From contig CM047429.1 of assembly GCA_026168455.1 (NCBI GenBank), positions 51,281,027 through 51,345,026 of the forward strand: a stretch of DNA of 64,000 nucleotides, read 5' to 3'. Below the pieces are notes generated by a model. The model searched no databases and had not been told where the DNA came from. It saw nothing but the letters and a program-made list of their open reading frames with translations. Origin of the DNA: Theocolax elegans (Eukaryota > Arthropoda > Insecta > Hymenoptera > Cerocephalidae). Of the stretch, positions 9,507 to 28,625 are shown piece by piece (the first letter of the stretch is position 1; each line of letters starts with the position of its first letter). The translations under genes were made by a program, and so were the position numbers.

Positions 9507-9706
9507 AATTTTTTTTTTATATTTTAACGTCGTTCTTTTTGTTTTGTGTGTCAGCGACGAAGGTCATACGATTTCTTGGCGAAGAAAGCACTTGGTGAAA
9601 ATACATTCGCCAGTGGTGTTTGTATCAATCGGCCGGAGCCGGGAATCGAACCTTGAACCTCCAGATTACGAGCCCGATGCCCTACCGACCGAGCCATCGC
9701 AAGGCC
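9507..9706 (-). mobile_element. tRNA-derived SINE, copy 2 (full-length head)
   Basis: Read on the minus strand, it begins GGCCTTGCGATGGCTCGG. It has a tRNA-like head with an anticodon-loop-like CTCGTAA and a B box GGTTCGATTCCCGG, then a body shared with 3304-3476 and an A-rich tail. A perfect 14-bp direct repeat TCAGTATACAAGAG flanks it (9493-9506 and 9707-9720). The loop CTCGTAA would read as a Thr(CGT)-type anticodon, so the founder may be a tRNA-Thr; this is inference. The env retroelement starts 3 bp beyond the right direct repeat. Confidence 0.85.
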
Positions 9707-9723: not shown

Positions 9724-10375
9724 TGTTATGTCCTGAATACTAAAAGCTTAATCTAAACAATGACGCCTGTCGCTTAGCCAGGACTCGAACCTAGGGAATG
9801 TTTAGGAAAACTAAGAGTATGTTTTACAGAACATAAACGTATTATCTAGTGGCAGGAAAGAAGGAGAGCTCTTTCCACACTAGTATTAATCAATTATTTT
9901 TATATAAATTGAGTACTTACTCAGTATTTCTTCTCTTGAAGATCTTTGCTTCCTTGTATTTTAAGTAAATGAATAATTAACACTTTGTTTATAATTGATT
10001 TAAATATATTATATAATTTATTAATTTTACACTTTTACAATATTCTTGATTTCTTTATAATTAGTACTCTCAGTCTTAAACACTTGAGAGACGAGCCGAC
10101 GCGTGATTCGAACTGCTTAATTGTAGGTCAACATCTTCAATTTATTGTAAAAGAATGTTTATAAATTATAAAATTAATTTACAAATTTTAGTCGAATATT
10201 ACCATGATCTCATTTAACAAATCGCTGAGTTTGCATTTTGACTCTTCGATTCATTGCTAATATCCAGGTCATTTACGAAACTCTACGTTCGCATTCTTTA
10301 AGCTGCAGTTGTTAGTTACGACTTGTTGTCGATTAAAAATTACAAAATTAAAAGTATACGTCTTATGACGTAACA
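9724..10375 (-). repeat. 3' LTR of the env element
   Basis: 652 bp, TG...CA, indistinguishable by eye from 20401-21052. On the coding strand it contains GGTTCGAGTCC, an exact match to the Pol III B-box consensus, immediately followed by the A-box-like TGGCTAAGCG. That order is reversed relative to a tRNA gene. The polypurine tract expected just inside this LTR is absent: the adjoining coding-strand bases are GGCCCCCCAGG. Confidence 0.95.
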
Positions 10376-10824
10376 CCTGGGGGGCCAGACGTTGCATATC
10401 GGAACGATATCAACTTCCTTTTAGTATTAGCAATCAATCGATTACATGATTTTAGGACACACTTTCATGTATGTATTGAGTCGACCACCTGTGCTACAAT
10501 ACAAACAAAACTTCAAACACGTACAAGCGAACATTGACCTTGTTTTGCTTCCGCGCGCACTTCTAAACAAATTGCATAAATCGACAACGCTACTCCATCC
10601 ATTGTGAATTAATATTGTATATTGAATTAATATTATGTATTAATTATGTAATATTGAATTAATATCGCTACTCCATCTGTTGTGAATTAATATTCACTAT
10701 CCTCCCCGCTTAAGTATTGTACACTATTTTGTGAAAACATTTAAGGAAAGAAAAAAAAATAGTGTGCAATTTTCTTTCTTTTTATTTTTATATTTTTTTT
10801 TTTTTTATTTTTTATTTATTTTTT
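10376..10824 (-). other. 3' untranslated region of the env element
   Basis: It lies between the env stop and the 3' LTR. It holds two copies of CGCTACTCCATC..TTGTGAATTAATATT (about 10588-10617 and 10668-10697) separated by more copies of the palindrome GAATTAATATT. There is no open frame of note. The end adjacent to env (10770-10825) is purine-rich on the coding strand but is not next to the LTR, so it cannot serve as the plus-strand primer. Confidence 0.6.
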
Positions 10825-12855
10825 TTATACATTTAACGAAAAAATATTATGATTTTTTGAATGTGAATTTGACATATTTTTACCTGATAGAGTAATTGTA
10901 GGATTAATTTTTGATGGGAATATTGATGGTGGTCTATTTGGGATTGGTGGAGGTTGCATGGGAGATGAAATCTTCGGTATAACTTTAATTTCTTTTAGTT
11001 CCACTTCTTCTGTTATTTCTGATTTCTTGTTATTCTCTTCATAATTTTCTTTATTTAATGTTGTCAATAAATGAGTAATTGAACTGAACACTGCTCCAAA
11101 AAGGTGAAGTGACCATCCATATATAGTATGTAGAGTATAGCCTCGAATTATTGTGTCAATGATTAATTTTATAACATGTAAAATTATTAGAATCATAATG
11201 AACATTGAGGAAAATGAGCCCCAAGTTGTCAATTTTCTAATAATTAGTTGCCATGTACTTTCTGCTATGTGTTTTAAAGTATTTTCTGTAAACATATTAG
11301 TTGTAGATTCATCTGAATTTTGTTGTCCCGTCATTTCTCTTGTAATTATATTTAATAATGAAGCTTTTTCGAGAGGAAACATGAGTTGTTGTTGTAGTTG
11401 GTCCAGGTCCGTTTGAGAATATACTCCACTAGTAGCCAAGGAATTAACTGTTTCATAGGTCCACCCAATCTGTGTATTAGGTTTAAACACATTAGGAGGT
11501 ATTGTTTTTGTTGGTGTTGGCAAAAATTTTATCCATTCGTCTCCAACTTTATAAAAAGTAGGAACTATAGAATTACAATCAACTTGAATTCCACGTTTTA
11601 CCAAAATATGTGTTTTTGGTGTAAGGAAATAAGTTTCATTTCCTGATGTAACAGGTAGATGATTATAACATTCCTTAGTGTGTAATAATTTTACCTCTTT
11701 TGGAGTACATTTTATCAAATAAACTGCTTCTCCCGCTAGTTTTGATATATAACCTGGTTTTTTCATAATGTTATATGCAAATTCATCTGGGGATAAGGTA
11801 GCAATGGATAAGGAATTTTGTATTGTTTTTCTTTCAATTTCACATTTTTGAGTTAATAGGTCTATATATATATTACCAAATTGATTCCTTAAATGTTTTT
11901 CTACATAAACAAATTTTGAATTTACATAAGTAAATAAATCTAAATGTACACTTGCTTTATTACTAACAATGTCATTTTCAAAATATAATCTATTTATATT
12001 ATTATTTTTTTCTAATATTAATAATTTTGGATGTTCAGTTCGGGTAAATTCGCGATTACAATTTGTGATTTTTTCCTTTGCCGCTAATGCAAAAGTAATT
12101 TCATTGGTATTTAACGTATAAGTAATTTCATTATTATTTCCGTTAGTAAACTTCTTTGCAAAACCTTTATATAAAACATCGTACTTATTTTTAAAACAAT
12201 CATCTGTTGGTAAAATATCCCAAAAAGTATAACCCCCTTCCATATCAAGACAATGTTTGTCTGAAAATTTACATACAGTACCCGAGCTTAATCTTAACTT
12301 ATCATTATTTAAATTTACTTGTGCATTGTTTCTTATTAATGTAATTTTGATTGTACCGTGTACAAATACCTTATTCCATGATCCAAAATTATCTGTATAT
12401 GACTCTCCTGAACATGAGTTTCCTTCTGCACTTCCCGCGAAATCTATTCCTTTTGTTGTAGTTGAATTTATTTTTAAATCGGCAATAGTATGTTTATTGT
12501 CATACTTAAAAACTCCTGTTTCTTGAATAAATTTACATTTTTCGTGACTTATATCGTAGATGTACTCTTGTTCTGCATTTTCCGTTGGAATCAAATGTCC
12601 AAAAATTCCACATTTGAAAATTGTTCTATGTATAATTATTTTACATTGAATAATTTTAGTGTTTTTAAATTCTGCTATTTGTAGTAATTCTATTGGAACC
12701 TCTGTTGAATTGATTTGTGCATTATGGAAATCACATTCGCCTGAATCAAGTAATGAAAATGTCGTAATATTTGGCATGGTTGTCCCACAATCAAACCCAA
12801 TAATCCCATGACAAATTTTTAAGATTGTCGAAAAAATAACTATTTGTTTAATCAT
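10825..12855 (-). CDS. env: Envelope glycoprotein of the LTR retroelement
   Basis: 676 aa, uninterrupted. A hydrophobic signal peptide occupies residues 1-~19. The ectodomain is Cys-rich with several N-x-S/T sites. A hydrophobic membrane segment follows at about 555-585 (MFIMILIILHVIKLIIDTII), then a ~100-aa cytoplasmic tail with a proline-rich MQPPPIPNRPPSIFP. The N-terminal block FDCG...NITTFSLLDSGECD resembles glycoproteins of Chuviridae-like negative-strand viruses captured by arthropod retroelements; this assignment is from memory and tentative. It starts 38 bases after the integrase frame ends and is probably expressed from a spliced subgenomic mRNA. The intact frame suggests recent selection or a very young copy. 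Confidence 0.85.
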   Translation of the reverse strand: MIKQIVIFSTILKICHGIIGFDCGTTMPNITTFSLLDSGECDFHNAQINSTEVPIELLQIAEFKNTKIIQCKIIIHRTIFKCGIFGHLIPTENAEQEYIYDISHEKCKFIQETGVFKYDNKHTIADLKINSTTTKGIDFAGSAEGNSCSGESYTDNFGSWNKVFVHGTIKITLIRNNAQVNLNNDKLRLSSGTVCKFSDKHCLDMEGGYTFWDILPTDDCFKNKYDVLYKGFAKKFTNGNNNEITYTLNTNEITFALAAKEKITNCNREFTRTEHPKLLILEKNNNINRLYFENDIVSNKASVHLDLFTYVNSKFVYVEKHLRNQFGNIYIDLLTQKCEIERKTIQNSLSIATLSPDEFAYNIMKKPGYISKLAGEAVYLIKCTPKEVKLLHTKECYNHLPVTSGNETYFLTPKTHILVKRGIQVDCNSIVPTFYKVGDEWIKFLPTPTKTIPPNVFKPNTQIGWTYETVNSLATSGVYSQTDLDQLQQQLMFPLEKASLLNIITREMTGQQNSDESTTNMFTENTLKHIAESTWQLIIRKLTTWGSFSSMFIMILIILHVIKLIIDTIIRGYTLHTIYGWSLHLFGAVFSSITHLLTTLNKENYEENNKKSEITEEVELKEIKVIPKISSPMQPPPIPNRPPSIFPSKINPTITLSGKNMSNSHSKNHNIFSLNV

Positions 12856-12893
12856 TATTGATAGACCTAAAACAGTAAAATTATATTAATACA

Positions 12894-13916
12894 TTATTTA
12901 TTTTTTTCATGCATAAATAATTTATTAGGATGGACTGTTTTTGGTTTTCCTTTATAATCTATGACTATATTACCATTCTCATGTACTTTTAAAATCTCAA
13001 AAGGTCCAAGATAATGATCTTTTTCTAATTTGCCTGGTTTAGGTTGTTTAGTGAACCAAACCTTATCTTTTATTTCAAATTGTACTGGATTTACGAATCT
13101 GTCATAATATTGTTTTGATTTCTCTTTAGATAATATTAAATTTTCTCGTGCTAATTTTGAAATTTCATCCATATTTAAAACTAATTTTTCAAGATAACCT
13201 TTAAAAGTGGGTAATTGTTCACTTTTCCTTAAAGGTTCATGTGATGGTAGTCTTGGAGGAAAACCAAAAACTATTTGAAATGGTGTATACATATGGCTAG
13301 TATGAACGTTAACATTATAATAAAATTGAGCTAATTCAATTAATTCATCCCATTCAATTTTCTTTGACGAAAAATTTCTTAAATACTCCATTAAAGGTGC
13401 ATGTGCTCTTTCTAAATTTCCATTTGCCCATGGAGTATAGGACGTTGTTTCTATTTTTGAAAATTTAAATCTACGAGCTATTGCTTTCATAATTTTCCCA
13501 GTAAAATTACCACCTCTATCAGTCAATAATAATTTAGGAAACCCAAAAATCAACAAGTATCGTTTTATAAAAGCATTAGCTACAGATTCTGCAGTTTGAT
13601 CTTGTAAAGGTACAGCTATTAAGTATTTTGAAAATTGATCTTGAATCGTTAAGATATATTTATTATTATTTTTAGTAATATTCAGTGGCCCTACAATGTC
13701 CATAGCAACTTTATCAAGAGATTTAAATGGTGTATCCGTTATTAACATAGGTTGTCTAACTCTTTTTCTTTTTAATTTATTTCTATTACAATCATCGCAA
13801 TTTTTAATTCTCTTTTGTATATCTTTCTTCAAATTTTCCCAAAAATACATAGTTTTAATTGTATTGTAAGTTTTTGTTATTCCTGCATGGCCTCCTAAAT
13901 TAGAAGAATGATACAT
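12894..13916 (-). CDS. pol: Integrase segment of env-element pol
   Basis: 340 aa in the third pol frame. It begins within the HHCC zinc-binding domain (HSSNLGGHAG, then CDDCNRNK). The catalytic core follows with D in VAMDIVGPL, D in LLTDRGGNF and E in NGNLERAH. A C-terminal GPF/GPY-like module (YLGPFEILKV) is present. The HHCC first histidine region is near the N-terminus, so the natural protein continues upstream in the preceding frame; the first ATG here is not a genuine start. A net one-base shift near 13910 separates it from the RNase H segment. Confidence 0.9.
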   Translation of the reverse strand: MYHSSNLGGHAGITKTYNTIKTMYFWENLKKDIQKRIKNCDDCNRNKLKRKRVRQPMLITDTPFKSLDKVAMDIVGPLNITKNNNKYILTIQDQFSKYLIAVPLQDQTAESVANAFIKRYLLIFGFPKLLLTDRGGNFTGKIMKAIARRFKFSKIETTSYTPWANGNLERAHAPLMEYLRNFSSKKIEWDELIELAQFYYNVNVHTSHMYTPFQIVFGFPPRLPSHEPLRKSEQLPTFKGYLEKLVLNMDEISKLARENLILSKEKSKQYYDRFVNPVQFEIKDKVWFTKQPKPGKLEKDHYLGPFEILKVHENGNIVIDYKGKPKTVHPNKLFMHEKNK

Positions 13917-15050
13917 ATCAATATTTTATCTCTTCCATCTAATGGTACGAAACGTATTTCATTTTTACATATTATTATATTAATTTGTGTATCTGCGAAT
14001 ATATCTTTTAATATTTCTTCAATTTCAATCCATTCAATATTAATTATTTCTATATCTTTTGATATACTAAAACTTAAATAATTTTTCTGCAATAATATGT
14101 TACTTAATAATTTAAATAAATTAATCAAATTTATTTTTACATTTATATATGATTCTGCAATATCCAAACATAATACAAACAATTTTTTATTGTCGATCTT
14201 AATTATTTCAATTTCATTTTTACTCAAAGATTTATTTATCTCAATTTGTTTATCATTAATTAATAACTCAGTATTATTATCGAACGATTTTCTTCCTTTC
14301 GAAATAATATGAACTATATTATCTTTCCTTAAATTAATAGAATCACGAGAGTAATTTATATTTTTACATTCTTTAAATATTTTTAAATGTTTATCCACTT
14401 GTGTAGAACTACCATTTATAATCAGTTTATTATCTTTTTTATGAGCTTGTTTAACTTCTTTCTTTTTATTCTCTAATTCTTGTATAGGTTCAGAAATTTT
14501 TACTTTTTCCGATTGAATTTGTTTAGCTTTTTGAGCTCTTGTTGTAACACTTATAATTGCACTTTCTATAGGATTTCTGGACAAAGCATCAGCATTTACG
14601 TTATTTTTTCCTGCTTTATAGACTACCTCATAATCGTATCCCATTAATTTAAAACGCCATTTTTGAACTCTAGTGTTATTATCAGCCATTTTTAATGATA
14701 ACAAAGGTTTATGATCTAAAATTATTACAAACTTATTTGCAAAAATATATTTATTGAATGTTTTAATAGCAAACATTACAGCTAATGCTTCTTTTTCATA
14801 CGTACAATAATTTTTTTCGGCACCTTTGATTACTCGAGACGCGTATGCTATCGGTCTATCTTCATTAATTTTCCCTTGTGATAAAATAGCCCCTAATGCA
14901 TACTTTGAAGCATCAGTAGTTATTAAAAAAGGTTTATCAAAATCTGGAAACTGTAAAACAGGTGCAGTACATAACGCAGTCTTTAATTTATCAAAAGCCT
15001 CTTGTATTTCTGTATTCCAAATAAATTTTACTTCTTTTGTAATAAAGTCG
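13895..15050 (-). CDS. pol: RNase H and connection segment of env-element pol (frame-shifted)
   Basis: This frame opens near 15050 and closes at 13895. The upstream part carries RNase H signatures (TTDAS, YCTYEKEALA) and continues with ILDHKPLLSLK and NVNADALSRNP, followed by a long Lys/Ile/Asn-rich spacer leading to the integrase zinc domain. The first in-frame ATG is at 14776, so an ATG-based annotation would miss the catalytic residues upstream. It is displaced by one base from both the RT and the integrase frames. The RT-side junction falls in a CAAAAG run, consistent with one missing base. Confidence 0.85.
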
Positions 15051-17433
15051 TTAAGGGTTTAGCTATTTCTGCAAAATTTTTAATAAATCGTCTATAATAA
15101 CCTGCTAAGCCTAAAAATTCTCTCACATTTTTAATATTTTTTGGACGAGGAAATTGTTTTATAGCAACTATTTTCTTCTCATCTGTTCTTATACCATCTT
15201 TACTTATTATATGGCCTAAAAATTCAATTTCTTTCTGAAAAAATTTACATTTACTTGTTTCAATTTTTAAACCTGCTTCCTTTAATTTTTTTACTACTAT
15301 ATTTAACCTCTGTATATGCTCTTCTATAGTTTCGGAAAAAATAATTACATCATCCATGTATACAAAACAAATTGTTCCAATTAAATTTTCTAAAACTCTA
15401 TTCATTACTCTTTGAAATGTTCTAGGTGAGTTTATTAAACCAAAAGGTAATACTTTAAACTCAAATCTTCCTAGTGGATGAATACTAAACGCTGTTTTAT
15501 GAATATCTTTTTCTTTTACTCTAATTTGATGGAATCCTGATACCATATCAATAGAACTAAATATTTTATTATTTTTTCCCATTTCATCAAAAATTTCTGT
15601 TATATTAGGTAACATATAGGGATCAGGAATGGTTTTTGCATTTAATTTTCTATAATCAATAACAAGCCTCCATTTCTTTTTACCATTACTCGCTAATGTC
15701 TTTTTTTCTACTAACCAAGTTGGTGCATTAAACGCGCTTTTTGAATTTCTTATAAGATCATTATTAATCAATTTTTTCGTTTCTTCAACTGCAATTTCTT
15801 TTAATTTATAAGGTAATGGGAACTGTTTAACGTATATAGGTTTGTCATCAATTAAATTTATTTCATGCTCTTCTATTTTACATAAACCAATTTTTTCACC
15901 TTCTAACCAAAATGACTCTCTATTTTCCAAAATAAAAGTTTGAACTGTTTCTTTATCCTCATTCGATAAGTGATTTAAATTTACTTTTTCTAGCAATTTT
16001 CTTTCTTTACTTAAATTATTTAATTTATTTTCTTCATCTTCTTTTGTAAAATAAATTGACCCCATATGTATTATTTCACTCTCATAAGGTAATATTGAAA
16101 CGTTAGTATTAATAATATCATTATAAAAGCCCTCAATATCTAATGAAATATAATTAATTTGATTTTTAAAATATGTATCCTCTCTATCAATTAAATTATT
16201 GTTTTTTAATGTTTCTTCAAAAATAAGGTAATTATTAATAATATATTCTTCTTCTTTAATATCATTTTTATTTAACATTGTATTATTTAAATTTCCTAAA
16301 AACTGTTCAATATTTATTTCTTTATTTTGTAAAAAATCTACAAGATTTACATAATTATCAACTTTTGATTGATCACTTACCCACGAATCTATTACACTTT
16401 CATCATTATTTTTTTCAGTTAAAATTTGCGTTTTTGTATTATTTACAGTATCAATTAATTTTGTTGTTTCAATATTTTCATAAAAATCAATTAAATCTTT
16501 ATTTGAAAAATCAATTAATTCTTTATTTGAAAAATCAATTAAATCTTCATTTAAAACATCGATTAAATCTTGATTCGAAAAGTCTATTAAATCATTACTT
16601 TTTCCAAAATTACCTTCAGCTACTTCTTGAAATTTATTTTGATTTATTTCTTCACAAGTTTTATCATGAATATTTTCAATTATATTGAAAAATTTTAAAA
16701 AATCTTCATTTATTGTACTTTGTATGCACATACTACTTTCTAAATTTTCTGTAAATTCTCTTTTTCTTATATTATTCTCATAATCTTTATCTTGTATTAC
16801 TTCGTTACAATTATCTTTTATAATATGTACAGAATTTTCTTTACTTTCTATAGACTGCAGTTTATTCGATTGAATTTTTAATTTATTGTTGTTAATTTCT
16901 AAATAGCCTTTATCTAACCGAAGTTTTTGTTGCATAAGAATTTTTATACCTATTATGCCATCATAAGGTATTGAAAAATCTTCAGGAGCTACGTGGAATT
17001 CAAAATTAATATTGTTTATTGCTAAATTTATAGTACCCAAAGTTTTAATAGCATTATCTGTTATGCCAGATATTAAAATTCTTTCAGTATTGTTTATTAA
17101 ATTAAATGGAATATTATCTTTTTTTATAAGATTAATTTGTGCTCCACTGTCAATTAAAAATTTACATTTTTTGTTTGGTATTAAATCATCAATTTCAATG
17201 TGTTGTAATAAATTCTCAATTTTAAAGACATAATTTCGTAAGTTATCCTGATTTACTAACGAATTATTACTCATATTATGAAACGATTGGTCAATAAACT
17301 CATGTTTTGTTGACATTTGATATTGTAGGTCACCGAGTGTCTTGTCTTTATTATCTCTCCCTATGCACTCGAACCTGGAAGAGTGTTCTCGTTTCCCGAA
17401 AATTTTTGCTGACTGTTTCGATATTTTACGCAA
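15028..17433 (-). CDS. pol: Protease-reverse transcriptase of env-element pol
   Basis: Open frame of 801 codons in the -1 frame relative to gag. The retropepsin active site LIDSGA lies at about residue 93. A ~280-aa low-complexity spacer follows and contains an array of LIDFSN(K/Q) repeats (16495-16580). The RT fingers/palm include WRLVIDYRKLN and the catalytic FVYMDD near residue 690, and the frame ends shortly after FLGLAGYYRRFI. It overlaps gag by 73 bases and has no convincing own start. Expression is explained by -1 frameshifting at GGGAAAC (17391-17397). The long PR-RT spacer is unusual for Gypsy pol. Confidence 0.92.
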   Translation of the reverse strand: MRKISKQSAKIFGKREHSSRFECIGRDNKDKTLGDLQYQMSTKHEFIDQSFHNMSNNSLVNQDNLRNYVFKIENLLQHIEIDDLIPNKKCKFLIDSGAQINLIKKDNIPFNLINNTERILISGITDNAIKTLGTINLAINNINFEFHVAPEDFSIPYDGIIGIKILMQQKLRLDKGYLEINNNKLKIQSNKLQSIESKENSVHIIKDNCNEVIQDKDYENNIRKREFTENLESSMCIQSTINEDFLKFFNIIENIHDKTCEEINQNKFQEVAEGNFGKSNDLIDFSNQDLIDVLNEDLIDFSNKELIDFSNKDLIDFYENIETTKLIDTVNNTKTQILTEKNNDESVIDSWVSDQSKVDNYVNLVDFLQNKEINIEQFLGNLNNTMLNKNDIKEEEYIINNYLIFEETLKNNNLIDREDTYFKNQINYISLDIEGFYNDIINTNVSILPYESEIIHMGSIYFTKEDEENKLNNLSKERKLLEKVNLNHLSNEDKETVQTFILENRESFWLEGEKIGLCKIEEHEINLIDDKPIYVKQFPLPYKLKEIAVEETKKLINNDLIRNSKSAFNAPTWLVEKKTLASNGKKKWRLVIDYRKLNAKTIPDPYMLPNITEIFDEMGKNNKIFSSIDMVSGFHQIRVKEKDIHKTAFSIHPLGRFEFKVLPFGLINSPRTFQRVMNRVLENLIGTICFVYMDDVIIFSETIEEHIQRLNIVVKKLKEAGLKIETSKCKFFQKEIEFLGHIISKDGIRTDEKKIVAIKQFPRPKNIKNVREFLGLAGYYRRFIKNFAEIAKPLTTLLQKK

Positions 17434-19373
17434 TTTTCAGCTGTATGCCCGATTGCTTTGCAATTTGAACATAATTCATCTACACTACTTTCCAAAAGTT
17501 TCAGCATACTACAATTATCAATCAAATGATCAAAATTTTTACAAAATGAACATTGTTTTTTAGTTTGTTTATAATTTTTTAATGCTTGTAATTTCCAACA
17601 TTCATCGATTACATGACCTTTAAACTTGCAATAGTCACAAACCTTTCCTTGAGACATATTTCTATTTATTTTATTTGTGTTATTATTAAAAATTTTATTT
17701 TGAAAATTACTATTCATATTTCTCGAATTTACTTGTTGATTATAATTTTGCGAAGATTTAAATTGTGCAACCATTAGTTTTATCTGTTCACATTCAGTTG
17801 ATAAATGTCCTTCATTACAAATTGAACAAAAGCTAATTTTTTCATTTTTACAATTTTTACTTATATGTCCCTTACCTTTACATTTGAGGCAAGTCATTTC
17901 TGGACAATTTTCTAAAGAATGATTTATTTTTCCACAAAAACCACAATTTTCTACTATAATTTTCTTTTGACCTGAACAAACATTAGGATTATGTCCGGAA
18001 AGACCACATTTCCAACAAATTATATATTCTGAAATAAAAGGACATTGATTTACTGTATGCGAAATTTCTTGACAATATTGACAATAACTATATTGATCTT
18101 TATTATATTTACAAGCACTTATTGAATGATTAGGTTGACTGCAATGTTTACAAGTTAAATTTATTTTATTTGTGACAACTCTACAATTATTTGAAAAATG
18201 ATCTGTTCCTTTGCAATAGACACAGCCTGCTAAAGGACAAAATAATGCTTCATGTTGAATACCATGGCAAATTTGACAAGTTAAAATTTTTTCCGTTTCT
18301 GATTTAAAAAAACTATTATTTGCAGATAAACAATTACTATCTCTTAAGCTGTCTTGTTTCAAAATTAAATTTTCTATTTCTATAGCTTTTATAGATATTG
18401 ATGATAAATCATTATGTTCCCCAACTCGGATATTTATTTCAAATTTTAAATCGTCTTTAAAATATTTTAAAGCATCTTTATCAACAGTATCATTAAAATT
18501 TTTAATACTAGTATTCGTTTCTCCCGATTGTGCTTTTTTAATTTCTTTCATTTGTTTTACCAAATCTGTAATTCTATTAGTGTAACTAACCACAGACTCA
18601 TTTTTACCTTGTATAATTTGAGATAGTTTGCCATATAGTTCATATAAATTATTTTTTGAAGGATATAATTTTCTTATAATAGAAACTAAATCTTCAATAC
18701 TTTTAATATTAGAATTACCCAAAGCCTTATATGCTTCTCCTTTTAACTTAATTTTTAATACCTTAATTAAATTTTCTTCATCAATATCTGCAATAATACT
18801 TTTAGCCTGTTTTAATTTTTCTATATATTCTGTTGGTGTTGGATTATGCCCATCAAATTCAGGCACTAAATTCGCAACATCCTTTAAAGATAATTTGAGT
18901 GCATTCTCTTGAGTCATATTTATGTTTTTAAAATCAAAATTTCCCAGATTAAGTGAACTATTCTCTACTTGATTTGGTGTTTCAATATCTATTAAATTAG
19001 TTACTTCTACTTCTTCAGAATTATTCAATAAAAGACTTCTTTGGTTTAATAAACCTTCAATATCTGTATAATCGTTAAATCCAGTCGAATTTGTTATATC
19101 CCAAATTGTATCATCTAATGCAATAGCTGAATCTTTGTAAATACTAGAATTTTGTTCTAATTCTAAAGAAGTTGATGGTTTAGGATGGTTAATTTCTGAT
19201 GAAGATTCAACGTTATTTTGTTCTGTTGGTAAATTAAAACTAACAGTTTTTGAAGGAGGAGAACGTATTAATTTTGAACTCTTTTGAAAAGGATTTAATA
19301 TTTGTTCTTTTAAAATAGGATTTTCTTTAACTAACCCTCTGGTTAATGGTTTATTATTTTCTGTATTTGACAT
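17361..19373 (-). CDS. gag: Gag polyprotein with eleven CCHC zinc knuckles
   Basis: 670 aa with an ATG start. The N-terminal ~150 residues are acidic and disordered with a LIDIE motif. A capsid-like region (about 170-380) follows, with LKDVANLVPEFDGHNPTPTEYIEKLK. The C-terminal half has eleven zinc knuckles. Ten are canonical C-x2-C-x4-H-x4-C (for example CWKCGLSGHNPNVC) and one (CSICNEGHLSTEC) has x3 before the histidine. Typical retroelement Gag proteins carry one to three. Multiple knuckles imply extended single-strand nucleic-acid binding, similar in layout to CNBP-type proteins. The gag stop lies 28 bases beyond the slippery site. Confidence 0.95.
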   Translation of the reverse strand: MSNTENNKPLTRGLVKENPILKEQILNPFQKSSKLIRSPPSKTVSFNLPTEQNNVESSSEINHPKPSTSLELEQNSSIYKDSAIALDDTIWDITNSTGFNDYTDIEGLLNQRSLLLNNSEEVEVTNLIDIETPNQVENSSLNLGNFDFKNINMTQENALKLSLKDVANLVPEFDGHNPTPTEYIEKLKQAKSIIADIDEENLIKVLKIKLKGEAYKALGNSNIKSIEDLVSIIRKLYPSKNNLYELYGKLSQIIQGKNESVVSYTNRITDLVKQMKEIKKAQSGETNTSIKNFNDTVDKDALKYFKDDLKFEINIRVGEHNDLSSISIKAIEIENLILKQDSLRDSNCLSANNSFFKSETEKILTCQICHGIQHEALFCPLAGCVYCKGTDHFSNNCRVVTNKINLTCKHCSQPNHSISACKYNKDQYSYCQYCQEISHTVNQCPFISEYIICWKCGLSGHNPNVCSGQKKIIVENCGFCGKINHSLENCPEMTCLKCKGKGHISKNCKNEKISFCSICNEGHLSTECEQIKLMVAQFKSSQNYNQQVNSRNMNSNFQNKIFNNNTNKINRNMSQGKVCDYCKFKGHVIDECWKLQALKNYKQTKKQCSFCKNFDHLIDNCSMLKLLESSVDELCSNCKAIGHTAENCVKYRNSQQKFSGNENTLPGSSA
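17391..17397 (-). promoter_or_regulatory. -1 ribosomal frameshift heptamer GGGAAAC
   Basis: On the coding strand the gag codons read TCG GGA AAC GAG, giving G GGA AAC, a canonical X XXY YYZ slippery site in exactly the correct zero frame. Slipping back one base enters the pol frame (KREHSSRF...). It lies 28 bases upstream of the gag stop. A short potential hairpin (CACTC / GAGTG) follows a few bases downstream. Confidence 0.8.
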
Positions 19374-19702
19374 TTGATTTTATGCATTATAAATTTCTTA
19401 CAAATTTTACAAATAGTAGTTTTATTAATAATAATATTTATAAACAAAAATTATGATTTTTTATGCTTTAATGATGTAAGATGCCAAGTCCAATTTTGGG
19501 AATTGAACCTGACTCAACTTAAAATAATATATATCCTGTTAAATTAAATTAATTTATTTAAAAAAGAAAAATCTGTGTAAGTTATTTATCTTTTTCCAAA
19601 ATTATTTATTCATACTTCTATAAAAAAAAATTTTATACTTAATTACTTTCTTACAAAGCTTGACTTAAAACCAATCCAGGTTAAAAAAAAATGCTTAGGT
19701 CG

Positions 19703-19720
19703 TATAAATTTATTATATAA
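19703..19720 (+). promoter_or_regulatory. TATA-like boxes upstream of the antisense gene
   Basis: TATAAATT at 19703-19710 and TATATAA at 19714-19720 lie ~80-95 bases before the ATG at 19799, with a further TATAAAA-like motif near 19761. In this AT-rich DNA such matches are weak evidence alone. They matter only because a complete spliced frame follows. Confidence 0.35.
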
Positions 19721-19798
19721 GTCGTATATGCTTCTGCAAGAATATTAATCACAACTTTGATATAAAAAACACCACATCTAGAAGAAATAAATACTACA

Positions 19799-20093
19799 AT
19801 GAATTCAGTAAGTTAAAATTATTTCAATTTTTTCTATTCTCTTTATCAATGTTTATCTTCTCTTTTTTTAGTCGACTTCCATAAATCAATCAACTATTTC
19901 TCAATTAGTAAAAAATGTGAATTTAACTTCCGATCCTGTGTACCAGATCGATTGTCATATTGAAGACTGGGATTATGAAAATTTTGTACCTCAATGTCAA
20001 TGGTGTAACAACAAAATTGACACTCCACCACAATTAAAAAGAACCATGAAAGTCAATTTAAATAATAATCAAATTATTGTAACATTTGAATAA
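19799..20093 (+). CDS. Antisense two-exon small gene in the env-element leader
   Basis: On the strand opposite to gag-pol-env, ATG AAT TCA (19799-19807) is followed by a consensus donor GTAAGT. A 64-nt intron (19808-19871) has a long pyrimidine tract ending TTTTTTTAG. Exon 2 (19872-20093) continues in phase for 73 codons to TAA, with AATAAA overlapping the stop (20089-20094). The predicted 76-aa protein starts MNSSTSINQST, is rich in Asn, Gln, Thr and Ile, and has a Cys/acidic centre DCHIEDWDYE...QCQWC that could bind metal. Exon 2 is visibly less AT-rich than its surroundings. Without splicing the frame stops after five codons. I recognise no homolog. It lies between the 5' LTR/PBS and gag, in what would otherwise be untranslated leader. 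An intron on the antisense strand would not be removed from the element's genomic RNA, so it could persist through transposition. Confidence 0.65.
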
Positions 20094-20386
20094 ATATTTT
20101 GACTTATGTATTTTTTCCTTAACTCGAATGAAAAAAAAAATTTTTTTTTTTATTTATTCCCAAGCTAATCTTAGTCAAAATTACTGATATGTTTCAATAC
20201 AATGAAATGTATAAACGAAAATAAGTTATTATATATTTTTAATAGAGTTATTTATACTTCTATTGTTAATAGAATTATTTATATTTTAATAAAGTTATTT
20301 ATACTGAAATCATTTGTTACGGTTTTTAAATTATTGGAACCCTTCTTCCAAAAAAAAAAAAGAATTTGTTTAATAATAGTGTGTTT

Positions 20387-20398
20387 GTACCGGAACCA
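20387..20398 (-). other. Primer-binding site of the env element
   Basis: Two bases inside the 5' LTR the coding strand reads TGGTTCCGGTAC, complementary to a tRNA 3' end finishing GGAACCA. The priming tRNA was not identified. Confidence 0.6.
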
Positions 20399-20400
20399 TT

Positions 20401-21052
20401 TGTTATGTCCTGAATACTAAAAGCTTAATCTAAACAATGACGCCTGTCGCTTAGCCAGGACTCGAACCTAGGGAATGTTTAGGAAAACTAAGAGTATGTT
20501 TTACAGAACATAAACGTATTATCTAGTGGCAGGAAAGAAGGAGAGCTCTTTCCACACTAGTATTAATCAATTATTTTTATATAAATTGAGTACTTACTCA
20601 GTATTTCTTCTCTTGAAGATCTTTGCTTCCTTGTATTTTAAGTAAATGAATAATTAACACTTTGTTTATAATTGATTTAAATATATTATATAATTTATTA
20701 ATTTTACACTTTTACAATATTCTTGATTTCTTTATAATTAGTACTCTCAGTCTTAAACACTTGAGAGACGAGCCGACGCGTGATTCGAACTGCTTAATTG
20801 TAGGTCAACATCTTCAATTTATTGTAAAAGAATGTTTATAAATTATAAAATTAATTTACAAATTTTAGTCGAATATTACCATGATCTCATTTAACAAATC
20901 GCTGAGTTTGCATTTTGACTCTTCGATTCATTGCTAATATCCAGGTCATTTACGAAACTCTACGTTCGCATTCTTTAAGCTGCAGTTGTTAGTTACGACT
21001 TGTTGTCGATTAAAAATTACAAAATTAAAAGTATACGTCTTATGACGTAACA
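20401..21052 (-). repeat. 5' LTR of the env element
   Basis: 652 bp, TG...CA, identical by eye to the other LTR at 9724-10375 over its whole length. Because the element is on the minus strand, this right-hand copy is the promoter-bearing 5' LTR. Transcription would proceed leftward over the leader and the antisense unit at 19799-20093. Confidence 0.95.
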
Positions 21053-23380: not shown

Positions 23381-23420
<40 letters not shown>

Positions 23421-26371
23421 GCTATTTCACGTCAAATGGTACGATGAAAATTTTAAATCGCTCCAAAATTTGAAAACAGGCTGGAAATATCTTCCAGAAG
23501 ATAGAAAAAAATTTTTAGGTGTTAAAAATAATTTGCCTAAGAGTTATTCCACTATGAAAAATAGAAATTTTTCAATTTTTTAGAAAAGTTGCTATTTTTA
23601 AAGCCATTTATCTCAAAATCTATTGATTTTTTTGAAACAACTTTTGTTCAAAATAATCTTTAGAACTTATCTACCTAGGTTACAATTCTTAATTTTAAAA
23701 TGTCGAAGTGATAGAACACCCGGAAATATTGAATATCAAAAAAAGGCGACCACGCCACAATCGATTTTGATCTAACACCGCTCAAAAGATCACATTTTTC
23801 GAGAGCTTTCGAATGGCGGTGATTAGATTATTGGCCAAGACCGCTGGTGTAAGTTATACCTCATAAACCTCATAAAATCACTAATTTTCATGTATTTTAG
23901 GGCATAACTTACACCAGCGGTCTTGGCCAATAATCTAACCACCGCCATTCGAAAGCTCTCGAAAAATGTGATCTTTTGAGCGGTGTTAGATCAAAATCGA
24001 TTGTGGCGTGGTCGCCTTTTTTGATATTCAATATTTCCGGGTGTTCTATCACTTCGACATTTTAAAATTAAGAATTGTAACCTAGGTAGATAAGTTCTAA
24101 AGATTATTTTGAACAAAAGTTGTTTCTAATGTTTTTTCAAAAAAATCAATAGATTTTGAGATAAATGGCTTTAAAAATAGCAACTTTTCTAAAAAATTGA
24201 AAAATTTCCATTTTTCATAGTGGAATAACTCTTAGGCAAATTATTTTTAACACCTAATAATTTTTTTCTATCTTCCGGAAGATATTTCCAGCCTGTTTTC
24301 AAATTTTGGAGCGATTTAAAATTTTCATCGTACCACTTGACGTGAAATAGCCCATATATATATGCGATATTCCACACGAAGTGGTCCGATCAAAATTTTA
24401 AAATGCACCAAATTTTGGGTACACATTGCAAATATTTTTCAGAAATTTAAAGAAATAGAAAAAATTCACAAAAATTAACATGGTAATTCCCATTTAAATT
24501 TTTAAAAAATTTTCGTGTTTTTTAAATTATTATAACTTTTTACAGAATTGAAGGCATTATAAATGCTACAGACCATTTGAAAGGTATTGCTCCAAGCTTT
24601 CTTTTAGATTTTTGTATAAAAAAATCAATTGTGGCGGCCTTGCACTTTTTTCAAGTTGAATATTGACATGTAGTTTATATAACATTCACTTTGAAATTAT
24701 AAATTTTAACCCAGAAGAATAAATTCCAGACACAAAATTAGCAACGAATGTTACATATAATGTTCTATAGTATTAAATTTGATAGATTTTGAGTTAAATA
24801 ATGGTAAACCCAGGTGGTGTTGAAAAAAACTTGGAAAAATCCACTTTTTGAGGTTAGAATAACTTTGGAGCAAATAGATTCCAGTACCTAAAATTTTTTT
24901 TCTGTATTCTGAAAAATATTTGCAATGTGTACCCAAAATTTGGTGCATATTAAAATTTTGATCGGACCACTTCACGTGGAATACCCCATATATATAATTT
25001 AAAGTATTACTTAATAATATGTTTAATATAAACTAAAATATAGCATCTAAAACAGAATTACTTTAACTTCAGCCTCTTTATTGTCTGAAAATGTGCTAAT
25101 CAGGTTTGAGTAAGGATTCTCTAAATAGTCTAAGCTACTTTCTGTAAAATTATCGAATTGTTTGTTTATATTCATACTCGTACTATCGTCAGGACTACTA
25201 AAGACAATGTTTTTGGTACAGAGTTCTCTATTTTCACTATCCTTACTGCACCCAGCTTTCGATACCATTTTTGTTACTGAGGCGTCATAAGTATCCGCAA
25301 AGCTAGGTGACATATGTTTACTAAAATCTGCAGTAACGGACATATTATAGGATCGTCTTTTGATAGAATTATCTGTGTTTGAAGGCCCATCAGATCGAAT
25401 GATATTTTCCTTTATGAACATTATATTCTATGAAGATTAATAAAAACTGTCGTAATCATTATATCGTCGTGCCTTACGAAGACTAGCATATCTAAATGCT
25501 TTATTAAATGTAAACGTGCTACTCTTCGAAAGACACGACGATATAACAAATGAAATACTATACAAAAATTTTGAATTTTACCTCTTTTACAGTCTGTAGT
25601 GTACGTTGCGTTGAAATAATGTTAATTAATGAATCATCTACATTTGCTTCAATTGCACTTATAACGTCTTGAATTAAATTATTTTTATAATCAATATTTT
25701 TTGAAAGAATAGAAGTATCCGTATTTGGTTTTGAAATTTGCGCATCGAATTGAGGTTTTAACTCTTGCAATATATTCGATGCCATTAAATTTTTAATTTT
25801 TTTCTTCAGCTGATGTTGAGGTTTACTATCCTACATTATAAAATATTAAGCATTATAAGTAATGCATGAATAAACTACTACATAAATAAAAAATAAGCAG
25901 ATTACAATTATCAGCAGATCATCGTTATCAACACATTTTTGATTATTTATGTTTCTCTTATTATTTTTCCGTTTATTTACAAAATCATTCATTAAATTTA
26001 ACAAAACATCCTCGTTTTCTAAAATAATTTGATGAATATTCACAAATTATTGTAATTTATTATATATTAAGTTTTGAGCGATTTAATTTTAAGATAATAT
26101 AAACAATCATTATTTATTATGTAACAATATTTAGGTTATATTTTGAATTATTAAAAAAAATTTAGAAAATTACGAATAATTGATACTTAACTAGATTTTT
26201 TAAGAATTTGTCCTGTATATCTTTCAGCAGATCGAGAATCTTCTGGCCAAAGAAAGGTTATTTTATCATCTTCCTTTATATAATTTTGCTTTTCTGTACA
26301 AATCACCTAATGCTTGTAAATTATGCAATATGAGCTGTCATCGCATTCATTTAATACTGCGATTCATCCAT
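22515..26371 (-). CDS. BEN-domain protein, eight exons
   Basis: Exons on the minus strand with matched phases: 26371-26192, 26018-25906, 25830-25582, 25427-25062, 23353-23267, 23194-22997, 22919-22718, 22648-22515. Exon 1 includes FLWPEDSRSAERYTGQILKK, resembling the Tudor-like N-terminal module of insect BEN proteins. Exon 6 has an acidic run (DDNDDEDDDDG). Exons 7 and 8 form a BEN domain: LQELITGSGIYVNKHALKN, TTLARALTLIVF, GRKGRGLNQNGIQ, then FVRHYAKQEKWP, ending at TAA. BEN domains bind DNA in transcription and insulator complexes, so a nuclear role is inferred. Exon 1 from the ATG at 26369 contains a frame change and an in-frame TAG, so either the true start lies elsewhere or the 5' end is broken. 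Exons 2-8 are open with consensus splice sites. Intron 4 carries two foldback elements. Confidence 0.7.
23419..24353. mobile_element. Foldback element, family B, copy 1 (935-bp palindrome)
   Basis: It begins GGGCTATTTCACGTCAAATG and ends with the near reverse complement. Arms of ~440 bp meet near 23880. It is inserted at the end of a (TA)n run (23385-23418) within intron 4 of the BEN gene. Its termini share a pattern with family A (GGG.TATT.CACGT.AA.TGG), suggesting common recognition, but the interior differs. No coding capacity. Confidence 0.88.
24365..24987. mobile_element. Foldback element, family A, copy 2 (arm deleted)
   Basis: The left terminus is mutated (GCGATATTCCACACG) and the right end GGAATACCCC is intact. 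Most of the left arm is missing relative to the copy at 5835-6829, leaving a ~625-bp element. It lies ~10 bp after family B copy 1 in the same intron. Confidence 0.85.
25459..25546. mobile_element. 88-bp palindromic MITE-like element in an intron of the BEN gene
   Basis: Ends TTATATCGTCGTG / CACGACGATATAA. The inverted repeats extend ~30 bp each with a few mismatches, around a ~28-bp loop. It sits in the intron between exons 25830-25582 and 25427-25062. No target duplication is clear. Confidence 0.65.
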
Positions 26372-26959: not shown

Positions 26960-28625
26960 TTTGTTATCGAAAAAAGTGTTGTTCCACGAATATCTCAAAA
27001 AGTTATTACCCGATTTGGCTGAAATTTTGAGGGTAGTAGTTTTCTCTACTTTTAAGAAGGTGCTGGTTCTATTTCCAGCCTCAACAGTGAAGCCATATTA
27101 AAGTTATAACAAAGTTTACATGTCTTTAAATAACGGATTTTTTTCATTCTTCGTACAATATCTCGAAATAGACATCTTCTACGAAAAAAAAATGTAAAGA
27201 CATAAAATATTCACATTAAAAATACGCAGCTTTTTCCCATTTAACATAGTATATTTTTCCCACTATTTTTGACGCTAGATACTCGCAAAGACGTAAATAT
27301 CAGAAAATTGAAAAATAAAAAAATCATTGTTCCACAAATACCTCAAAAAGTTACTATCCGATTTAGCTGAAATCTTGAGGGTAGTTTTCTCTACATATAA
27401 GAAGGTGCTGGTTCTATTTCCAGCAACATCGGCGGAATTATATTTAAGCTATAACAAAGTTTACATTTATCTAAATACGGCTTACATTCATTTTCCGCAC
27501 AATAATTCGAAATGTAGAACTCCTATCAAAAACTTTCTATTACCAAAATGTTTTAATTACAAAGACGGAACTTTTTCCTATGTAACGTAGTACATGATTT
27601 TCCACTATTTTTGGCGCTAGAGACTCGCAAAGTCGCTAATATCATCAATTTGAAAATTAAAACTTTCGATGTTTCACAAATATCTTGAAAAATTTTCAAC
27701 TCATTTGGCTGAAATTTTGAGGGTAGTTTTCTCTACTTTTAAGAAGGTGCTGGTTCTATTTCCAGCCTCAACAGTGAAGCCATATTAAAGTTATAACAAA
27801 GTTTACATGTCTTTAAATAACGGATTTTTTTCATTCTTCGTACAATATCTCGAAATAGACATCTTCTACGAAAAAAAATGTAAAGACATAAAATATTCAC
27901 ATTAAAAATACGCAGCTTTTTCCCATTTAACATAGTATATTTTTCCCACTATTTTTGACGCTAGATACTCGCAAAGACGTAAATATCAGAAAATTGAAAA
28001 ATAAAAAAATCATTGTTCCACAAATACCTCAAAAGTTACTATCCGATTTAGCTGAAATCTTGAGGGTAGTTTTCTCTACATATAAGAAGGTGCTGGTTCT
28101 ATTTCCAGCAACATCGGCGGAATTATATTTAAGCTATAACAAAGTTACATTTATCTAAATACGGCTTACATTCATTTTCCGCACAATAATTCGAAATGTA
28201 GAACTCCTATCAAAAACTTTCTATTACCAAAATGTTTTAATTACAAAGACGGAACTTTTTCCTATGTAACGTAGTACATGATTTTCCACTATTTTTGGCG
28301 CTAGAGACTCGCAAAGTCGCTAATATCATCAATTTGAAAATTAAAACTTTCGATGTTTCACAAATATCTTGAAAAATTTTCAACTCATTTGGCTGAAATT
28401 TTGAGGGTAGTTTTCTCTACATATAAGAAGGTGCTGGTTCTATTTCCAGCAACATCGGCGGAATTATATTTAAGCTATAACAAAGTTAGTTTCAATCAAT
28501 TTGGCTGAAATTTTAAGAGTAGTTCCTTTACCCTTCAGATGGTGCTGGTTCTATTTCTAGTAAGATCGATGGCATCATATTTTTGTTCTGCTATAACAAG
28601 GTCGGTAGAACCATATTTCAGCTGT
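26960..28625 (+). repeat. Satellite-like tandem array, ~342-bp monomers in a ~686-bp higher-order unit
   Basis: The landmark GGTGCTGGTTCTATTTCC recurs at 27059, 27404, 27746, 28089 and 28430 (spacing 341-345), with a diverged copy at 28541. Alternate monomers are of two types: one follows the landmark with AGCCTCAACAGTGAAGCC, the other with AGCAACATCGGCGGAATT. Monomers 1 and 3, and 2 and 4, are almost identical, while neighbours differ strongly, so this is a dimeric higher-order repeat present just over twice. It has no coding potential. Confidence 0.88.

Follow-up and report, generated by a model that had tools for sequence, protein, structure and literature searches.

An antisense two-exon gene, very probably protein-coding, in the leader of an env-bearing Ty3/gypsy provirus of Theocolax elegans

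The analysis of a 64,000-nucleotide stretch of the Theocolax elegans genome (assembly GCA_026168455.1, contig CM047429.1, positions 51,281,027 to 51,345,026; hereafter the window) indicates that a Ty3/gypsy-type provirus located there very probably carries a real, self-contained, protein-coding gene of two exons in antisense orientation. As read directly from the sequence, this gene lies on the plus strand, opposite to gag-pol, in the leader between the 5' long terminal repeat (LTR) and gag. Comparison with other copies in the same genome shows that the predicted exon 1 with its donor, the acceptor, the reading frame and the amino-acid constraint are conserved, and that homologous exons exist in a second repeat family, here called group C. 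An antisense, intron-containing coding gene in an env-bearing LTR element had been suggested in a preliminary description of the window, and the comparison of copies supports this suggestion.

The layout proposed there, i.e. a TATA-like box, an ATG, a GTAAGT donor after three codons, a 64-nt intron, exon 2 and an AATAAA overlapping the stop, was confirmed base for base (Table 1). The 74 codons originally counted for exon 2 include the stop codon, and the exon is less AT-rich than its surroundings, as had been stated (29% GC vs 22% in the leader). The unspliced frame terminates at once (ATG AAT TCA GTA AGT TAA); the predicted spliced product comprises 76 amino acids. The open frame alone is weak evidence, because 151 of 1000 dinucleotide-shuffled versions of the 1022-nt leader contained, on some frame, 74 or more codons without interruption. 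The case for a gene rests on the comparison with diverged copies and group C, not on the length of the frame.

The 658-Mb genome (1277 contigs) was searched with the 392-bp stretch containing the gene, and 40 of 85 candidates were scored. At least 41 DNA matches were obtained, and 26 of those listed, including the window's own, show 99-100% identity. Exon 1, GTAAGT and the acceptor junction AG/TCG are intact in all these recent places, 21 of which have an open exon 2; the remaining five each have one single-base indel in this exon. However, the recent copies are too young and say little about selection. At L027 (C3:24113500-24117500), the leader including the antisense gene is tandemly duplicated, 954 bp apart.

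More informative is a diverged subfamily of ten aligned copies (L009-L018) with 79-85% identity. In L009-L013, the blastn identity to the window is 81-82% over positions 19628-20100 and 82-88% at the LTR border, with an unalignable flanking leader, and in L014 most of the leader aligns to the window at 75%. The exon-1/donor block is recognisable in all of these copies except L018; it is exactly ATGAATTCAGTAAGT in L010, L011, L014, L015 and L016, shows two changes in L017, and has a different third exon-1 codon in L013. The acceptor AG is kept in ten of ten copies. In the window family this AG reads CG, and an AG is present exactly 3 nt upstream instead; hence, the frame stays in phase. Conservation of the splice sites, proposed earlier as a check on the gene, was therefore observed for GT in nine and for AG in all ten diverged copies.

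Exon 2 is open throughout in only two of the diverged copies, and the ratio of non-synonymous to synonymous substitution rates (dN/dS) between them and the window is 0.20 (L009) and 0.18 (L013), values that come from two non-independent pairs in one genome and cover 71 codons. When the same changes were placed at random without creating stops, as few amino-acid changes resulted in 38 of 2000 runs for L009 and in 3 of 2000 runs for L013. For comparison, a simpler count gave ratios of 0.31, 0.33, 0.34, 0.37, 0.40 and 0.67 for gag, with 1-3 stops in each case, a usable alignment being available from six of the 11 loci tried. Differences counted as fixed at a threshold of 75% make up 19 of the 213 exon-2 columns, 12 of the 61 intron columns and 23 of the 139 columns of the upstream block. 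The 19 fixed differences in exon 2 fall on codon positions one, two and three in the numbers 2, 5 and 12, a count without the first codon of exon 2, a codon that belongs to the intron in the other copies; with this codon included, 9 of 21 differences are synonymous against 5.7 expected, which was reached in 8% of simulations.

Apart from the restricted base of the dN/dS values and the frequency of long open runs in shuffled leaders, several observations weigh against a functional coding gene. The third codon of exon 1 is a stop in L009 and L012. Both exons are open only in L013 among the ten diverged copies, most of which are broken; the gag of L013 itself has two stops among 462 codons compared. 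The selection check proposed in the preliminary description gave low ratios in the two usable pairs, but individual old copies do show decay. Furthermore, L010 and L011 share one exon-2 stop, which may mean that an element without a functional gene has moved or that the change arose repeatedly, and among the recent copies L050, L051 and L052 all miss an A in the same A run of exon 2. Finally, stricter thresholds for fixed differences (exon 2, intron and upstream block: 17, 11 and 9 at 90%; 9, 4 and 5 at 100%) put the upstream block on a par with exon 2, which fits a promoter and also shows that the conservation is not all coding.

The second line of evidence is provided by group C. A protein search of the genome with exon 2 gave 85 matches, 44 of which were assigned to group C by identity and place, mostly at 49-64% identity and including some short ones that were not examined; 25 of the 44 lie in one array of repeated units containing exon-2 copies, L022 (C2:78.69-78.71 Mb). 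Scanning for the sequence pattern of exon 1 and donor, with at most three mismatches allowed, gave 63 matches, compared with 16 for reversed-pattern controls. Exon 1 with the donor is present at most 5 kb upstream on the same strand in 10 of 18 hand-listed non-array group C places with exon 2; two of the ten have an exon 1 in common, and one of the exon-1 copies has lost its ATG. Hence, the earlier assignment of the gene to the provirus holds insofar as it is present in the leader, but it is not unique to this element. Common to both families are exon 1 with its donor, the intron position, a homologous exon 2 and the poly(A) signal. Clear homology starts 5-28 bases before the ATG (12 pairings) and ends near the poly(A) signal, and the flanking DNA is unrelated or too diverged on both sides. 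Deep pairs within group C have exon-2 dN/dS values of 0.18 (L021-L060) and 0.19 (L059-L060). The young pair L021-L059 is unconstrained, with no synonymous and eight non-synonymous changes, as expected for a mobile family with decaying copies. In a tree of 21 exon-2 sequences, group C forms one clade with a support of 1.00, and the window family, which has a long branch, is placed among the 79-85% copies. Collectively, the two-exon gene looks like a module common to two mobile families that would have moved between the element and group C; the tree does not give the direction.

The long intron of group C harbours an insert whose two ends are inverted copies of each other (the 5' end in L068 and the 3' end in L063 are 86% identical over 462 bp; within one copy, comparing L065 with L063, the value is 83% over 169 bp); because of this insert, the ancestral group C intron was probably short. 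A hammerhead-like string noticed by eye (CTGATGAG...CGAAAC) is located inside the insert; the assignment as hammerhead was rejected, since Rfam reported none at gathering scores in eight loci and none at E 1 in five loci. In five group C loci (L065, L066, L069, L072 and L073) a divergent companion open reading frame (ORF) stands upstream of the two-exon gene, in place of gag; in L069 its distance to exon 1 is about 550 bp. Its pieces point to a protein of perhaps 290 residues, with a longest open stretch of 272 codons in L066 and a broken frame in L065 and L072. It has no Pfam match near the cut-off and no relatives among 357 candidate proteins, and BLASTP against the gag of the element gave an E value of 1.6.

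Three other explanations were weighed against a coding gene that serves the element. The gene could be a coding passenger, picked up from another repeat or the host and useless to the element, with a constraint that mostly dates from before the capture. The homologous exons in group C and the many broken diverged copies, including the stop shared by L010 and L011, are in line with such a history; however, the low ratios separate two lineages that are both within the element, and the excess of third positions among the fixed differences also speaks against it, so that we regard a mere passenger as unlikely. Constraint between element lineages rather suggests that the replicating element profits, since a copy that has become fixed at a given locus drifts.

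Alternatively, the conservation could come from the other strand or from functions of the RNA or DNA, for example a packaging, leader or regulatory element or an interfering non-coding antisense transcript. Leaders are regions where packaging, leader and regulatory signals are expected, and the upstream block is conserved, too. Against this stand the preference of the differences for third positions of the plus frame and their sparing of amino acids, the 3-9 stops in each of the five other frames of exon 2 in the window copy, the stronger divergence of the intron compared with exon 2, and the presence of the gene with other flanks in group C. An exclusively non-coding explanation is hence quite improbable, while an additional non-coding role beside the coding one may exist. 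A chance open frame combined with chance splice-like motifs draws on the shuffling result given above, but the same exon 1, donor, acceptor and frame are found again in different subfamilies and in group C, which makes pure coincidence extremely improbable.

If the coding interpretation is correct, a promoter of its own in the leader would drive plus-strand transcription toward the 5' LTR, the 64-nt intron would be removed from this transcript, and polyadenylation would occur at the AATAAA. In this regard, the preliminary description was right about an orientation toward the 5' LTR, but the poly(A) signal is situated approximately 300 nt short of it. The intron should outlast retrotransposition, since the genomic RNA corresponds to the opposite strand. 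The 76-amino-acid protein would then act in trans; as a guess that is rather more likely to be wrong than right, it may be a small factor with a regulatory or counter-silencing role that promotes propagation of the element. Tentatively, and with slightly less than even confidence, we further propose that the spliced accessory gene is a module travelling between unrelated mobile families, which is retained in antisense orientation by an env-bearing Ty3 element of an animal, allowing its intron to persist through the RNA stage, encodes a new small Cys/His protein needed by the element, and has evolved independently as a 5'-leader equivalent of the antisense genes that complex retroviruses possess. 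A constrained, intron-bearing antisense gene in such an animal element would imply that these layouts arose more than once. The intron offers a ready marker, as one spliced plus-strand read would demonstrate expression, and since a second repeat family has the exons as well, gene traffic between mobile elements can be tested directly.

An alignment of eight exon-2 frames has 18 invariant columns, including H29, D32, W33, C42, T51-P52-P53 and L55-K56-R57; C28 is missing only at a gap in the second frame of L020 and C45 is altered only in L022. The core C28-H29 ... C42-x-x-C45 is followed by a basic stretch, and our guess is that it binds metal or forms a small metal-stabilised fold. No long hydrophobic stretch was seen by eye. 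The profile search proposed earlier for the product returned no relatives: no Pfam family was found for the product, nor for the eight aligned relatives at E 10; none of 1896 candidates from 5.8 billion proteins was a homologue of the eight-frame alignment at E 0.01; IMG/VR, which may omit records close to this genome, gave no homologue among 28 pattern matches; and the best PDB match had an E value of 0.16. As a control, the collection used for the exon-2 search was queried with the integrase of the element and yielded 58 proteins at E 1e-10, among them proteins named from Ooceraea, Trichogramma, Pseudoatta and Schizaphis; hence, the collection includes some insect proteins. A single-sequence structure model of exon 2 had a mean predicted local distance difference test (pLDDT) score of 38.7, which is too low for use.

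Antisense accessory genes of LTR elements have been described for deltaretroviruses (PMC10186651) and plant elements (PMC7264820; all articles are cited here as far as their available text goes). The plant examples, Grande gene23, RIRE2, Retand and PvRetro13, are likewise antisense additional ORFs in LTR retrotransposons, and for gene23 a separate promoter located upstream and a nuclear product are reported (PMC7264820). However, they are usually located between pol and the 3' LTR, whereas the present gene lies between the 5' LTR and gag, has an intron and belongs to an env-bearing element; the word intron is absent from the available text of PMC7264820, and the plant proteins were compared here only via general database searches. 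The deltaretroviral genes HBZ and APH-2/3/4 are also antisense and spliced and encode small regulatory products, a role that is a guess in the present case; these genes begin in the 3' LTR (PMC10186651), unlike the internal leader start presumed here, and HBZ carries a bZIP domain, in contrast to our product without any Pfam domain. Hence, the gene shares the coding strand opposite gag-pol with the plant aORF-3R type and human T-cell leukaemia virus (HTLV), but not their 3'-LTR-proximal location.

In insect Ty3-type elements, sORF1 and sORF2 of the Drosophila MDG1 group are small accessory ORFs that likewise precede gag, and they have low non-synonymous/synonymous rates (PMC11952523). These ORFs are in sense orientation and transcribed with gag and pol, whereas the present gene is antisense; moreover, MDG1 elements are without Env and sORF2 is transmembrane (PMC11952523), compared with an env-bearing carrier here. 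The ORFs captured in bdelloid rotifers resemble our case in that one accessory ORF occurs in different mobile families, but the rotifer ORF3s are enzymatic (GDSL, DEDDy), and the available text of PMC5408684 is without the word intron. A survey of annelid LTR elements mentions antisense ORFs only in the introduction, as far as its text was available (PMC8220671). Among the literature on antisense genes in LTR, gypsy and errantivirus elements, judged by titles and abstract openings, no description of an antisense gene with an intron was found for any Ty3 element of animals.

Table 1. Features of the antisense gene and its carrier provirus (positions in the window)
Feature	Position	Strand	Remarks
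Upstream block, presumed promoter	19628..19798	+	TATA-like TTATATAAG near 19715; aligns together with the exon unit in diverged copies
Exon 1, ATG AAT TCA	19799..19807	+	Direct reading; block kept in 9/10 diverged copies, also in group C
Intron, 64 nt, GTAAGT (at 19808)...TTTTTTTAG	19808..19871	+	Predicted from sequence and copy comparison
Exon 2, 73 codons + TAA	19872..20093	+	dN/dS 0.18-0.20 vs two diverged copies; open in 21/26 recent places
AATAAA poly(A) signal overlapping the stop	20089..20094	+	Direct reading; homology to group C ends nearby
5' LTR of provirus	20401..21052	-	652 bp, 0 mismatches to 9724-10375
gag frame, stop to stop	17361..19379	-	First ATG 19373; zf-CCHC above cut-off, Retrotrans_gag below cut-off
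pol (protease-reverse transcriptase, RNase H, integrase)	12894..17436	-	RVP, RVT_1, RT_RNaseH, Integrase_H2C2, rve
env frame, 686 codons	10825..12885	-	Monjiviricetes-type fusion glycoprotein, PF24664, E 3.4e-204
3' LTR of provirus	9724..10375	-	652 bp, matches the other LTR without mismatch

The carrier is an env-bearing Ty3/gypsy-type provirus on the minus strand (9724-21052) with identical 652-bp LTRs, outside of which AGGAT is found on both sides as target-site duplication. The assignment to Ty3/gypsy follows the domain order gag, protease, reverse transcriptase, RNase H, integrase, taken without a phylogeny of the reverse transcriptase, together with the matching LTRs. In the window copy pol is split over three successive overlapping frames from 17436 to 12894, and it may be damaged or use frameshifting. 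The preliminary description spoke of a Gypsy-type env element; the Ty3/gypsy carrier and the presence of env stand, but the glycoprotein is of the chuvirus type. The env frame matches Pfam Monjiviricetes_fusion only, at E 0.1 or better, and an errantivirus identity of the element was rejected, as its env is of this chuvirus/Monjiviricetes type and not of the baculovirus F type. According to the available text of PMC10084718 (2023), there was no clear evidence for the capture of a chuvirus-type env by Gypsy elements; in the window, an open env frame of this type lies inside a Ty3/gypsy provirus with identical LTRs.

Some minor features of the window were also recorded. The first pol frame contains a 24-bp in-frame tandem repeat (16482-16601) that encodes LIDFSN-like units. 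Inspection by eye of positions 10376-10391, just before the 3' LTR, revealed no purine tract on the sense strand, and the opposite strand is purine-rich. Outside the provirus, tRNA-like, SINE-like (short interspersed element) pieces appear by eye to be similar between window positions 9640-9705 and positions 1650-1720 of L064; ARAGORN reported no tRNA in the window. Finally, a tandem array of approximately 342-bp units and long inverted repeats are present at 27036-28503 and 23409-24996.
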